64,000 nucleotides of DNA. Source: Ethanoligenens harbinense YUAN-3 (GTDB lineage Bacteria > Bacillota > Clostridia > Oscillospirales > Ethanoligenentaceae). Below the pieces are notes generated by a model that saw only the letters and a list, made by a program, of their open reading frames with translations, made no database searches and had not been told where the DNA came from. The stretch is from NCBI RefSeq assembly GCF_000178115.2, contig NC_014828.1:2201310-2265309 (forward strand). The letters are read 5' to 3'. Below are positions 47,171-55,670 of this stretch, piece by piece (position 1 is the stretch's first letter; each line of letters opens with the position of its first letter). The position numbers and the translations under genes were made by a program.

Positions 47171-47692
47171 ATGCCCCAACCCCCAAAACACGTCTCTGTT
47201 CTCAAACACATCGGTTCGGTCATCACGGACACCCTGCTGGGAAAAATCGTAACCGTTGCCATCGCCGGCGGTGTGGCGGCCATCGGCGGCGTGCTGGCTT
47301 CCCATAACGGAAAAACGACATCCACTGCCGCTTCCGCTTCGTTGTTTTCCTCCGCATCCGCTATTTCCTCTTCTTTTTCCTCTCCGTCCTCATCTGTGTA
47401 CGGGAGCGAACGCGCAACAGCAGGAAACGGCGGCAGGCAAACGGCCGACGATGACACCTCTTCGGCATCGTACGGCGGCACCTCCGATAATGGGCTTGAT
47501 GCCGCGTCCGGGATGCCGGACGGCACGTCTTACGCGGGCAACGCCGCATCCGGGAACGGTGTGAGCAGCCGAATGGAAAGTTCCGCCTTTTCTTCCGAAA
47601 CCGGGCCGTCTTCTTCCGGCGCGGCGGAAACCGCCGGCGTTTCATCCGCAGATTCCGGTTCTGTGTCCGGCGCGTCGTCCGTCGTTTCCTGA
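47171..47692 (+). CDS. Ser/Ala/Gly-rich membrane-anchored hypothetical protein
   Basis: 173 residues. One hydrophobic helix near the N-terminus (LLGKIVTVAIAGGVAAIGGVLA) is followed by about 120 residues of low-complexity Ser/Ala/Gly/Thr sequence with no recognised domain. AAAGG eight bases before ATG 47171 supports translation. Could be a surface-exposed stalk or linker protein. No homologue is recognised, and codon composition gives only modest support. Confidence 0.5.
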   Translation: MPQPPKHVSVLKHIGSVITDTLLGKIVTVAIAGGVAAIGGVLASHNGKTTSTAASASLFSSASAISSSFSSPSSSVYGSERATAGNGGRQTADDDTSSASYGGTSDNGLDAASGMPDGTSYAGNAASGNGVSSRMESSAFSSETGPSSSGAAETAGVSSADSGSVSGASSVVS

Positions 47693-47712
47693 TGTACGCA
47701 GCCCTTGAACAA

Positions 47713-47751
47713 ATCACCCCCGCAGGCCGGAAACCGGCCTGCGGGGGTGAT
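47713..47751. terminator. Perfect 18-bp inverted repeat (hairpin) between two converging genes
   Basis: Arms 47713-47730 and 47734-47751 are exactly complementary (ATCACCCCCGCAGGCCGG and its complement) with an AAA loop. A TTTGTT tract follows on the minus strand. Likely a shared terminator for the Ser-rich gene and the Pro-rich gene. Confidence 0.7.
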
Positions 47752-47776
47752 GCGGTCCATATAAAAAATCCGAATA

Positions 47777-48016
47777 TCACGGTCTCGGCGGATGCGGCGG
47801 CCGTGGTGGATACGGCGGTCTTGGGGAGCCAGGCGGATGCGGCGGCCGTGGTGGATACGGCGGTCTTGGGGAGCCAGGCGGATGCGGCGGCCGTGGTGGA
47901 TACGGCGGTCTCGGGGGGCCGGGCGGATGCGGCGGCATGGGCGGGCGCGGCCGGGCAGGCGGCCACGGGCGGTGTGGCGGGAACCACCACCAGATAAATG
48001 GTCTGCGCATAGTCAT
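47777..48016 (-). CDS. Small proline-rich repeat protein
   Basis: 79 residues starting MTMRRPFIWWWFPPHRPW, then Pro-rich sequence made of three 15-residue repeats of the type PRPPYPPRPPHPPGS. A purine-rich AGAGGTG site lies before the start and a strong hairpin follows 25 bp after the stop, both favouring this strand. Such proteins occur among spore-coat or surface proteins, but no family is assigned. The opposite strand is also open over the repeat (Ala-rich repeats) but lacks a ribosome site and would read through the hairpin. Confidence 0.5.
   Translation of the reverse strand: MTMRRPFIWWWFPPHRPWPPARPRPPMPPHPPGPPRPPYPPRPPHPPGSPRPPYPPRPPHPPGSPRPPYPPRPPHPPRP
47788..47935. repeat. 45-bp tandem repeat, three copies plus partial
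   Basis: GATGCGGCGG recurs at 47791, 47836, 47881 and 47926, an exact 45-bp (15-codon) period; the first two full units are nearly identical. Because the unit is a multiple of three, copy-number change would lengthen or shorten the Pro-rich protein without frameshift. Confidence 0.9.
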
Positions 48017-52289: not shown

Positions 52290-53516
52290 ATGACAGATTT
52301 GCAGTACATACAAATCGGGACAAAAGAGGCGCAGCGCGCTTCGTTGGGCGTGCTGGTGGGCAGCACCATCACCTATGCCGTGATGTACAGCCCACAGCCG
52401 CTTATCAGTCTGTATTCAAAAGAATACCATATCCCGCCCGCCACAGCCAGCCTGTCCATTTCGCTCACGTCGGTCGCGCTTGCGGTCAGCCTGCTGTTCA
52501 TCACCATGTTCGCGGGGGGATTCGACCGCAAGCGCTTCATGAGCGTTTCATTGCTGCTCACGTCGGGCATGACGGTCGCCGCCGCATTTTTGCAGAATTT
52601 TTCGGCCTTTCTGGTCGTGCGTCTTTTAGAAGGGATTTCCATCGCCGGGTTCCCGTCCATTGCCATGGCTTATCTGAACGAAGAATTTTCTCCGCGCGAC
52701 ATCGGCAGGGTCATCGGCTACTACGTGGCGGGCACGGCGACGGGCGGCCTGATCGGCCGGCTCATCATCGGTATCCTTACCGAACACACCAACTGGCACA
52801 TCGCATTCGGGATACAGGGCGCGGTCAGCTTGGCGGGCGCGGTGTGGTTCTGGCGGTTTTTGCCGGATTCGCGTAATTTCAAAAAACAGTGTATCTCGAT
52901 TTCCAACTGGCTGGCCAGCGTGAAAAAGACCCTCTGCAACCTCCACCTTTGGCCCATGTATATCGCCGCGTTTCTGCTGATGGGCGGATACACCGCCGTG
53001 CTCGACTACATCGGCTATCCGCTCATGCACGCGCCCTACAACCTCAGCCAGACGGCGTTTGGCTTTCTGTTCGTCGTCAATCTGTGCGGCATTTTCAGTT
53101 CGGTGCTGTTCGGGCAGATGGCAGACCGCTATTCGCGCCGCAATGTGCTGGCGCTGGCCATCGGCGTCTTTATCGCGGGCGTGCTGCTCACCCTCTACCC
53201 CAACCTGGTCGTCAAGATCGCCGGGGTGGCGCTGGTCTCGTTTGGCTTTATGGCGGGGCATTCGGTCGCAAGCGGCTGGACCGGCCTGCTGGCGGAACAC
53301 AGCTGCAAAGGGCAGGCCGCCTCGTTTTATCTGCTGTTCTATTACATCGGTGCCAGCCTGGTGGGATGGTCGGGCGGATTTTTCCTTGACCGCAGCGGAT
53401 GGCAGGGCCTGTGCGGCTATATCACCCTGCTGCTCCTTGCCGCTTTTTGTGCCGCGTGTCGGCCGTGGCGCTGGATACACCGCGCGAACGGATCGGCTTT
53501 CCACCGGCACGCCTGA
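52290..53516 (+). CDS. MFS efflux-type transporter (YnfM-like)
   Basis: 408 residues, twelve membrane segments. Motifs: PLISLYSKEYHIPPA near the first helix, FAGGFDRKRFMSVSLLL loop, MAYLNEEFSPRDIGRVIGYYVAG, GQMADRYSRRNVLAL (second MFS A-motif) and GHSVASGWTG. Similar to inner-membrane transporters of the YnfM/AraJ sort, probably drug or metabolite efflux. It is the last gene of the folate run and may be co-expressed, but a folate-related substrate is only a guess. ATG 52290 lies directly after the folK stop. Confidence 0.9.
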   Translation: MTDLQYIQIGTKEAQRASLGVLVGSTITYAVMYSPQPLISLYSKEYHIPPATASLSISLTSVALAVSLLFITMFAGGFDRKRFMSVSLLLTSGMTVAAAFLQNFSAFLVVRLLEGISIAGFPSIAMAYLNEEFSPRDIGRVIGYYVAGTATGGLIGRLIIGILTEHTNWHIAFGIQGAVSLAGAVWFWRFLPDSRNFKKQCISISNWLASVKKTLCNLHLWPMYIAAFLLMGGYTAVLDYIGYPLMHAPYNLSQTAFGFLFVVNLCGIFSSVLFGQMADRYSRRNVLALAIGVFIAGVLLTLYPNLVVKIAGVALVSFGFMAGHSVASGWTGLLAEHSCKGQAASFYLLFYYIGASLVGWSGGFFLDRSGWQGLCGYITLLLLAAFCAACRPWRWIHRANGSAFHRHA

Positions 53517-53529
53517 CTCAACCGCACAC

Positions 53530-53573
53530 GTCACAAAGGCCGGGGCCCCTTTGGGGGCCCCGGCCTTTGTGAC
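53530..53573. terminator. Perfect 20-bp hairpin between the MFS gene and spoVM
   Basis: Arms 53530-53549 and 53554-53573 are exact complements with a four-base TTTG loop. No long U run follows on either strand. It sits between converging transcripts and presumably terminates both. Confidence 0.78.
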
Positions 53574-53586
53574 GCACTATATGTAC

Positions 53587-53667
53587 TCACTCGCCCTGCC
53601 GAATACCAAACAAAAGGCGCAGCAGCCCTTTGAGGAAGCGCGGGCTCTTCCAAACGACAACTTTCAT
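53587..53667 (-). CDS. spoVM: Stage V sporulation protein M (SpoVM-like, 26 residues)
   Basis: A 26-codon gene translated by hand; product begins MKVVVWKSPRFLKGLLRL and ends GIRQGE. Compared from memory with Bacillus SpoVM, also 26 residues, identical positions are Met1, Lys2, Lys7, Pro9, Phe11, Leu12, Gly14, Arg17 and Gly21, including the functionally critical Pro9. SpoVM is an amphipathic helix that recognises the convex forespore membrane and anchors SpoIVA, the coat basement layer. GGAGG lies eight bases before ATG 53667. The location after prpC-prkC-rsgA-thiN is the same as in Bacillus, which strongly supports the call. Confidence 0.88.
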   Translation of the reverse strand: MKVVVWKSPRFLKGLLRLLFGIRQGE

Positions 53668-53703: not shown

Positions 53704-53847
53704 TCAGCATTTGCTGCAAAAAACGCCCACCACGATCAAGGCGACCGCCAGCAAAACGACCGTCAGCTCCACGGGCAGGACAAAGGCCATCAGCACACCG
53801 ACCCCGAGAAAAACCGCCCCAAGGGCTTTTTGGCACCGTCTGTTCAT
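53704..53847 (-). CDS. 47-residue two-helix membrane protein, unknown
   Basis: Translated by hand: starts MNRRCQKALGAVFLGVGV, has two hydrophobic helices (about 9-25 and 29-44) split by a Pro-Val-Glu turn, and ends CSKC. GGAG is four bases before ATG 53847. It sits 36 bp upstream of spoVM and is presumably co-transcribed with it. Similar tiny two-helix proteins are common in Clostridia without assigned function. A sporulation role is suggested only by context. Confidence 0.7.
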   Translation of the reverse strand: MNRRCQKALGAVFLGVGVLMAFVLPVELTVVLLAVALIVVGVFCSKC

Positions 53848-53872: not shown

Positions 53873-53902
53873 TATGGTATGGCATGATTGCATTGCGGCT
53901 AT
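53873..53902 (-). promoter_or_regulatory. Possible sigma-E-type sporulation promoter for the spoVM unit
   Basis: Minus-strand CATACCATA (53873-53881) fits the CATAnnnTA -10 element of sigma-E/sigma-K. An ATA (53900-53902) lies 18 bases upstream, slightly longer than the usual 16-17. Predicted start near 53866 falls ten bases before the ribosome site of the 47-residue gene. No sigma-A-like promoter is evident. The rest of 53903-54087 has no gene. Confidence 0.45.
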
Positions 53903-54087: not shown

Positions 54088-54747
54088 TCAACCAAGATGT
54101 CTGCTATTCAGCGGGAGACCGCAGGATTTGGGGCAGAGCATGATGAGCAGCGCTCCGCGTTTCACCGAGATCACGGCCTGCTCGTCGCGAAATTCATTGC
54201 TCACACCCAGCGGATCGGCGGTGCGCAGGCAGGCGTCCGTCAGTCCATATTTCATTCCGGTTTCGTTCACGCCATCCGCCGGCCCGTCAAACGGAAAGAC
54301 CGACACATAATAGTCCTCGCGCTTTTTCAGGCGCAGCGAGCCGTTTTTCACCACATGGATTTCCACGCCGCCGTCCGCAATCGTACCGGAAGCGCCGTGC
54401 TCGGCCAGATAGAGCAGCGCGCACAGATTGGCATAGGCATGATCCGGGCGGCCACCCCATGCGCCAAGCAGCAAAAAAGAACGATACCCCATTACCAGCG
54501 CGCGCTTGACGGCCAGCATGGTGTCGGTATCGTCCTTTTCAGGCGGAAAACGTTCCGCCGGCACGCCCTCCGGAAGACGCTCCACGGAATCCAGATCGCC
54601 CAGCACCCGCTGCGGGCGCACGCCCAACCGACGGGCGTTATCGGCACCGCCGTCCGCACAGAGGATATAATCGTCCGGCCGCACCAGGCGCCGGAGCGCG
54701 GGGATATCCTGCATCGGCCCTGCGGCGATCAAGAGGCATCTGCTCAT
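54088..54747 (-). CDS. thiN: Thiamine pyrophosphokinase
   Basis: 219 residues. ADGGADNARRLGVRPQRVLGDLDSV, PEKDDTDTMLAVKRAL and LGAWGGRPDHAYANL are the catalytic motifs. It converts thiamine to thiamine diphosphate. ATG 54747 overlaps the rsgA stop; the 45 upstream in-frame residues overlap rsgA and are not family-like. The Bacillus order rsgA-rpe-thiN is kept except that rpe is missing. Confidence 0.95.
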   Translation of the reverse strand: MSRCLLIAAGPMQDIPALRRLVRPDDYILCADGGADNARRLGVRPQRVLGDLDSVERLPEGVPAERFPPEKDDTDTMLAVKRALVMGYRSFLLLGAWGGRPDHAYANLCALLYLAEHGASGTIADGGVEIHVVKNGSLRLKKREDYYVSVFPFDGPADGVNETGMKYGLTDACLRTADPLGVSNEFRDEQAVISVKRGALLIMLCPKSCGLPLNSRHLG

Positions 54748-55670
54748 TTTTTCAATTCCCAGTCCTTGATGTCTTTCACCGCTTCGTACATCGCGCAATA
54801 GCTTGCGTGGCGGGATGCGGCGATCTCCCCCCGCTCCACGGCCGCGCGCACCGCGCAACCGTCCTCGCGCACATGCGCGCACCCACGGTAGCGGCAGCCA
54901 TCCAGATACGGCGCAAACTCCCGGAAGGCAAAAGGCAACTGCTCCTTGCGGATGAGCACCGCGCCCGCCACGTCCAGCGCCGAGAAGCCCGGCGTATCGG
55001 CCATATACCCCTCTTGGGAGATACCGTAATCCGCCATGCGGAACAGCTCCACCGTGCGGGTAGTGTGGCGGCCGCGCCCCAGCCTGCGGCTGACATCACC
55101 CACCTGCAACGACAGAGCCGGTGCGATACGGTTGAGCAGGCTGGACTTGCCCACCCCGGAATTGCCCGTGAACGCACAGACGCCTTGCAGCGCGTCGCGC
55201 ACCGCGGTCACGCCCTGCCCCGTCATGCTGGACACCACAAAGGCGGCAAAGCCCGCCTTGCGGTAAATATCCGCCAGCTCGTCCACCGGCGCAAGGTCGC
55301 ACTTGGTAAAGATGAACGCCGGCTCGATCCCGGCCGTTTCGGCCAGCGCCGAGAGTTTATCAATGGCAAACGTATCCGACTGCGGCGACGCCGCAGCCGA
55401 CACGATGAACAGCCGGTCCAGATTGGCGAGCGGCGGGCGCACCAGCGCGTTGCGGCGCGGCAGGATTTCTTCAACCGTGCCCTCGCCCGCCTGTTCGTCC
55501 TGCACGGAAAACCGCACCCGGTCGCCCACCAGAGGCGTCATCTTCTCCTTGCGAAAAATGCCGCGCGCACGGCAGGCCACCGTGTGCTTCGCATCCCGCA
55601 CGTAATAGAACCCGCCCGTCGCGCGGACGATCAGACCTTCGTAGAGTTCTATAGCGGCATTTTCCATCAT
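54744..55670 (-). CDS. rsgA: Small ribosomal subunit biogenesis GTPase RsgA
   Basis: 308 residues. N-terminal OB domain, then a circularly permuted GTPase: FTKCDLAP (G4) precedes FTGNSGVGKSSLLNRI (G1), with RHTTRTVELF (G2) and DTPGFSALD (G3). The C-terminal zinc site is CRYRGCAHVREDGCAVR. It helps late 30S maturation, and in Bacillus is a PrkC substrate. Overlaps prkC and thiN by four bases each. Confidence 0.97.
   Translation of the reverse strand: MMENAAIELYEGLIVRATGGFYYVRDAKHTVACRARGIFRKEKMTPLVGDRVRFSVQDEQAGEGTVEEILPRRNALVRPPLANLDRLFIVSAAASPQSDTFAIDKLSALAETAGIEPAFIFTKCDLAPVDELADIYRKAGFAAFVVSSMTGQGVTAVRDALQGVCAFTGNSGVGKSSLLNRIAPALSLQVGDVSRRLGRGRHTTRTVELFRMADYGISQEGYMADTPGFSALDVAGAVLIRKEQLPFAFREFAPYLDGCRYRGCAHVREDGCAVRAAVERGEIAASRHASYCAMYEAVKDIKDWELKK

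Follow-up and report, generated by a model that had tools for sequence, protein, structure and literature searches.

A conserved two-helix micropeptide gene precedes spoVM and probably forms a sporulation unit with it in Ethanoligenens harbinense YUAN-3

Introduction

Does a 26-codon open reading frame of Ethanoligenens harbinense encode a genuine SpoVM, and does this gene stand alone at its locus? SpoVM is a model for membrane-curvature sensing by a tiny protein and for the start of coat assembly. We examined a window of 64,000 nucleotides, which is the whole stretch of DNA analysed (contig NC_014828.1, positions 2,201,310 to 2,265,309). The initial annotation had placed a spoVM gene there, between thiN and an MFS gene. 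What is new beyond spoVM itself is a conserved partner gene, whose role in building the spore is worth testing.

Identity of spoVM and its neighbours

The minus strand of 53587..53667 translates from ATG to TGA as 26 codons, with the product MKVVVWKSPRFLKGLLRLLFGIRQGE. The strong ribosome site claimed earlier is present, as a GGAGG 7-8 nt 5' of the ATG. The product has the length expected of a SpoVM (~21-28 residues), the Met-(Lys)-hydrophobic start, Pro9 and a basic-hydrophobic amphipathic pattern. It shares nine identities with the SpoVM of Bacillus subtilis. The sole family match is NCBIfam NF033436 (SpoVM_broad), with an E-value of 9e-7. Its score of 28.8 bits lies below the cut-off of 31.

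A match this short, below the curated cut-off, could come from a chance look-alike of SpoVM. However, the SpoVM of C. difficile, which binds SpoIVA (PMC5607322), scores 29.1 bits against the same model and likewise falls below 31. The cut-off is therefore strict for clostridial forms. A search of the entire 3.01 Mb genome (a single contig of 3,008,576 bases) gave this one SpoVM_broad match, so no second, better SpoVM lies elsewhere. Orthologues occur in the same context in relatives, with E-values as low as 1e-15. The gene is under purifying selection at the protein level among close relatives (pooled pN/pS 0.20; Fisher p ~1e-14, indicative only because of kinship). Synteny and the presence of spoIVA also speak against a look-alike, and we consider this explanation extremely improbable. 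Synteny, selection and the single genome-wide match confirm that 53587..53667 encodes a genuine SpoVM.

The proposal that the organism is a spore former called for a search for core sporulation genes. The genome contains spoIVA (E 5e-122), spoIIGA (E 5.7e-85) and the C-terminal domain of spo0A (E 2.8e-47). The organism is thus, by its gene content, genetically equipped to sporulate.

Among the neighbours that mark spoVM by gene order (thiN/rsgA and/or rpmB), thiN and rsgA lie upstream and rpmB is absent here. The thiN gene (thiamine pyrophosphokinase) occupies 54088..54747 on the minus strand. Its name comes from the conserved prkC-rsgA-thiN order, and tblastn finds homologues upstream of the pair in relatives. 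The rsgA gene (ribosome assembly GTPase; 54744..55670, minus strand), also found in relatives by tblastn, overlaps thiN at 54744-54747. No rpe lies between them; in B. subtilis, rpe sits between rsgA and thiN. On the other side, the MFS gene converges on spoVM and ends at 53516. A perfect inverted repeat of 20 bp at 53530..53573 separates the two (RNA fold -49.1 kcal/mol, z -10.5). This hairpin 3' of spoVM is a probable bidirectional transcription terminator. Elsewhere in the window, a proline-rich repeat ORF (47777-48016, minus strand) lies opposite an ORF with repeated ADAAAVVDTAVLGSQ units (47692-47997, plus strand).

The location given by the initial annotation is correct for both neighbours and for the syntenic position behind thiN. 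Nevertheless, thiN and spoVM are not adjacent, and a conserved ORF of 47 codons separates them.

The partner micropeptide

This ORF occupies 53704..53847 on the minus strand and encodes MNRRCQKALGAVFLGVGVLMAFVLPVELTVVLLAVALIVVGVFCSKC. It ends 36 nt before the spoVM ATG. Searches of Pfam, NCBIfam and PHROGs gave no convincing family. In the alignment with its homologues, the N-terminus is charged, (F/L)P separates two hydrophobic stretches, and the columns G17, P25 and G41 are nearly invariant. The AlphaFold model places helices at 3-23 and 26-46 (mean pLDDT 80, with pTM only 0.40). So, a helical hairpin is predicted, and we describe the product as a putative two-helix membrane micropeptide. 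It matches the same profile as the C. difficile protein that fits CD25622, has two helices split by (L)P, and is the best match of its genome, directly 5' of spoVM. We refer to it as the partner.

A small ORF at such a short distance could be a leader, or an element for translational coupling of spoVM, rather than a working protein. The gap is short in the class (median 33 nt). However, the partner has a pN/pS of 0.21 among close relatives, which means purifying selection on the protein. Its two-helix pattern and the near-invariant G17, P25 and G41 are conserved, and it is kept in lineages where no spoVM was detected. A leader is very unlikely on these grounds. Both ORFs are under protein-level selection, adjacent, linked across the phylum and found together with spoIVA.

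The gap of 36 nt would leave little room for a promoter between the two genes. Upstream of the partner, the sequence CATACCAT (53874..53881, minus strand) lies 34 nt 5' of the partner ATG. It may be the -10 element of a promoter for a mother-cell sigma factor (E/K-type). The motif CATAHHHT occurs upstream of 27 of 88 partner genes, compared with 7.5±2.6 in shuffled sequences. In the zone from -68 to -25 it occurs in 19/88, compared with 3.1±1.7 in matched windows. A loose TCAC-like -35 accompanies it; in the window, the -35 element is weak. The strict sigma-E spacing ATA-N16-19-CATA showed no enrichment upstream of the partner genes.

Linkage of partner and spoVM across the phylum

The SpoVM and partner profiles were each run separately against 243 genomes of the class, a few of which belonged to the training set. 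At E<=1e-6, 35 of 36 genomes had their best partner match 5' of a SpoVM match and on its strand. Laxer cut-offs gave 48/55 (E<=1e-5) and 55/71 (E<=1e-4). In many of the exceptions, the partner is followed at once by a SpoVM whose length is insufficient for the profile. Over all adjacent pairs, the gap ranges from 17 to 121 nt. The spoIVA gene is present in 68 of the 71 genomes with a partner and in 97 of the 100 with a SpoVM, against 182 of 243 overall. The p-values for linkage and co-occurrence are only indicative, since related genomes are not independent.

The search was extended to 398 genomes from the phylum. Leaving aside the training set and the class itself, 40 genomes had a partner match at E<=1e-4. 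The partner was next to a SpoVM match in 24 of them, and in none was the SpoVM elsewhere. Among the remaining 16, we read 13 loci by eye, and 10 had a SpoVM-like ORF just downstream that the profile had missed. Two out-of-class partner matches (L161 and L164) belonged to longer proteins and were set aside. The partner thus served as a beacon for very short or divergent SpoVMs that profiles miss.

Nearly all the loci of relatives have a small, similarly designed hydrophobic ORF 5' of spoVM. Several families, and also other classes, have the order thiN, partner, spoVM and convergent rpmB. An origin of the partner by chance, or by linkage to thiN, was ruled out because it accompanies spoVM also where thiN is absent, and it stays there where neither thiN nor rsgA is a neighbour. 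Judged from these genomes, the partner precedes spoVM across the Clostridia and in other classes of the phylum.

The two genes are not always found together. One family (f43) retains thiN, partner and rpmB with the place of spoVM empty at seven loci, so that spoVM has apparently been lost and the partner kept. In other families, spoVM and rpmB are kept without the partner. These gene contents suggest that the two can be separated by loss.

The position of spoIVA was also recorded. In five genomes of one family it is divergent from the pair at ~200 nt, and in several others it lies at 1.7-3.1 kb.

Variation of SpoVM among relatives

The initial annotation had described a divergent SpoVM, with Trp6 and extra leucines. 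This description is not supported. At a lax threshold, 47 of 59 relatives have a match to the SpoVM model, and only 13 exceed the curated cut-off. The SpoVMs read form a tight family, in which a helix follows the motif MK[IV]VV-x-[KR]-x-P-[KR]. Residue 6 varies among V, I, F, L, W and Y; 15 of the loci that we read have Trp. The leucines of MKVVVWKSPRFLKGLLRLLFGIRQGE are typical of the family alignment. Since Trp6 is frequent among relatives, the SpoVM of the window is ordinary and not unusually divergent.

In B. subtilis, SpoVM residue 6 interacts with Gly486 of SpoIVA. The equivalent of this Gly486 is Gly in this genome and Asn in C. difficile. No covariation was found between residue 6 and this site, which is always or almost always Gly in the relatives read, be residue 6 V, I, F, L or W.

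Pro9 has been described as the only completely conserved residue of SpoVM (PMC5607322). Nine natural SpoVMs lack it. Five of them have Ser9, and four have Lys9 or Gly9; Pro8 occurs in three of the latter. They would be useful natural variants for studies of curvature sensing.

Proposed role of the pair

We propose, with a probability of about 0.88, that partner and spoVM form a two-gene sporulation unit after thiN, with spoVM in second place, and that the partner is a probable membrane accessory of SpoVM/SpoIVA. If it behaves as in B. subtilis and C. difficile, SpoVM would lie as an amphipathic helix on the positively curved outer forespore membrane, at its mother-cell face. There, it would recruit SpoIVA, the ATPase that makes up the coat base. 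The partner hairpin should insert in this membrane too, both termini in the cytosol of the mother cell. It would probably help SpoVM or SpoIVA to anchor to the forespore or to encase it. In this organism, the pair would be expressed during sporulation. The most likely role of the partner is that of an accessory, in the membrane, to the SpoVM-SpoIVA basement of the coat.

A different reading gives the partner its own mother-cell membrane function in sporulation, unrelated to SpoVM. The two genes would share a locus only because both are needed in the mother cell. The family that keeps the partner without spoVM, and the several families with the reverse, favour such independence. On the other hand, the pair remains intact through changes of all its other neighbours and across classes. 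Where a SpoVM is found, the best partner match of the genome is almost never apart from it. We regard an independent function as possible but the weaker reading.

The accessory role can be carried further, to a proposal that we hold tentatively, at a little under even odds. The partner would belong to an ancient and unrecognised two-helix family, whose members are, as a rule, the operon companions of SpoVM in clostridia and the classes related to them. With SpoVM and SpoIVA, it would form the membrane base of the coat. In some lineages it could outlive SpoVM, perhaps taking over the anchoring. Mutants of spoVM are mild in clostridia. For C. difficile, a redundant factor has been proposed, and the conserved partner is a tangible candidate for it.

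Comparison with B. subtilis and C. difficile

The SpoVM of B. subtilis likewise has 26 amino acids, a Met-Lys start, Pro9 and an amphipathic helix pattern. Residue 6 is Ile there and Trp in the window. In both organisms, spoVM follows the prkC-rsgA-thiN genes, and spoIVA is in the genome. The window differs from the B. subtilis gene order in that a membrane micropeptide gene lies between thiN and spoVM and the downstream neighbour of spoVM is not rpmB.

For the C. difficile clade, we used four genomes with an exact match to primers of a housekeeping gene (tpi). In all four, the best partner match of the genome is MRNNKSKVLLGILCLATGMAVILSMLLPGWIWSALTALILIGCGALLFFC, a protein of 50 aa encoded 35 nt before SpoVM. 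The SpoVM of these genomes is MKVVTIKLPKWISNI(V/I)LKFMRKSKND. The single locus that we read completely has rpmB converging on the pair. The 50-aa protein fits CD25622, matched by length, gene order and the rpmB neighbourhood rather than by locus tag.

In C. difficile, CD25622 is co-transcribed with spoVM and depends on sigma-E (PMC5607322). Polar insertions in CD25622 give the same mild defect as insertions in spoVM and add little to the effect of losing spoVM, so that its own role was judged to be small (PMC5607322). It was published as unique to the Peptostreptococcaceae (PMC5607322). However, this restriction does not appear to hold for the family, whose homologous sequences we found in many families and in other classes. 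The CD25622-spoVM pair is like that of the window: a two-helix protein of ~50 aa, recognised by the same profile, is encoded directly 5' of spoVM.
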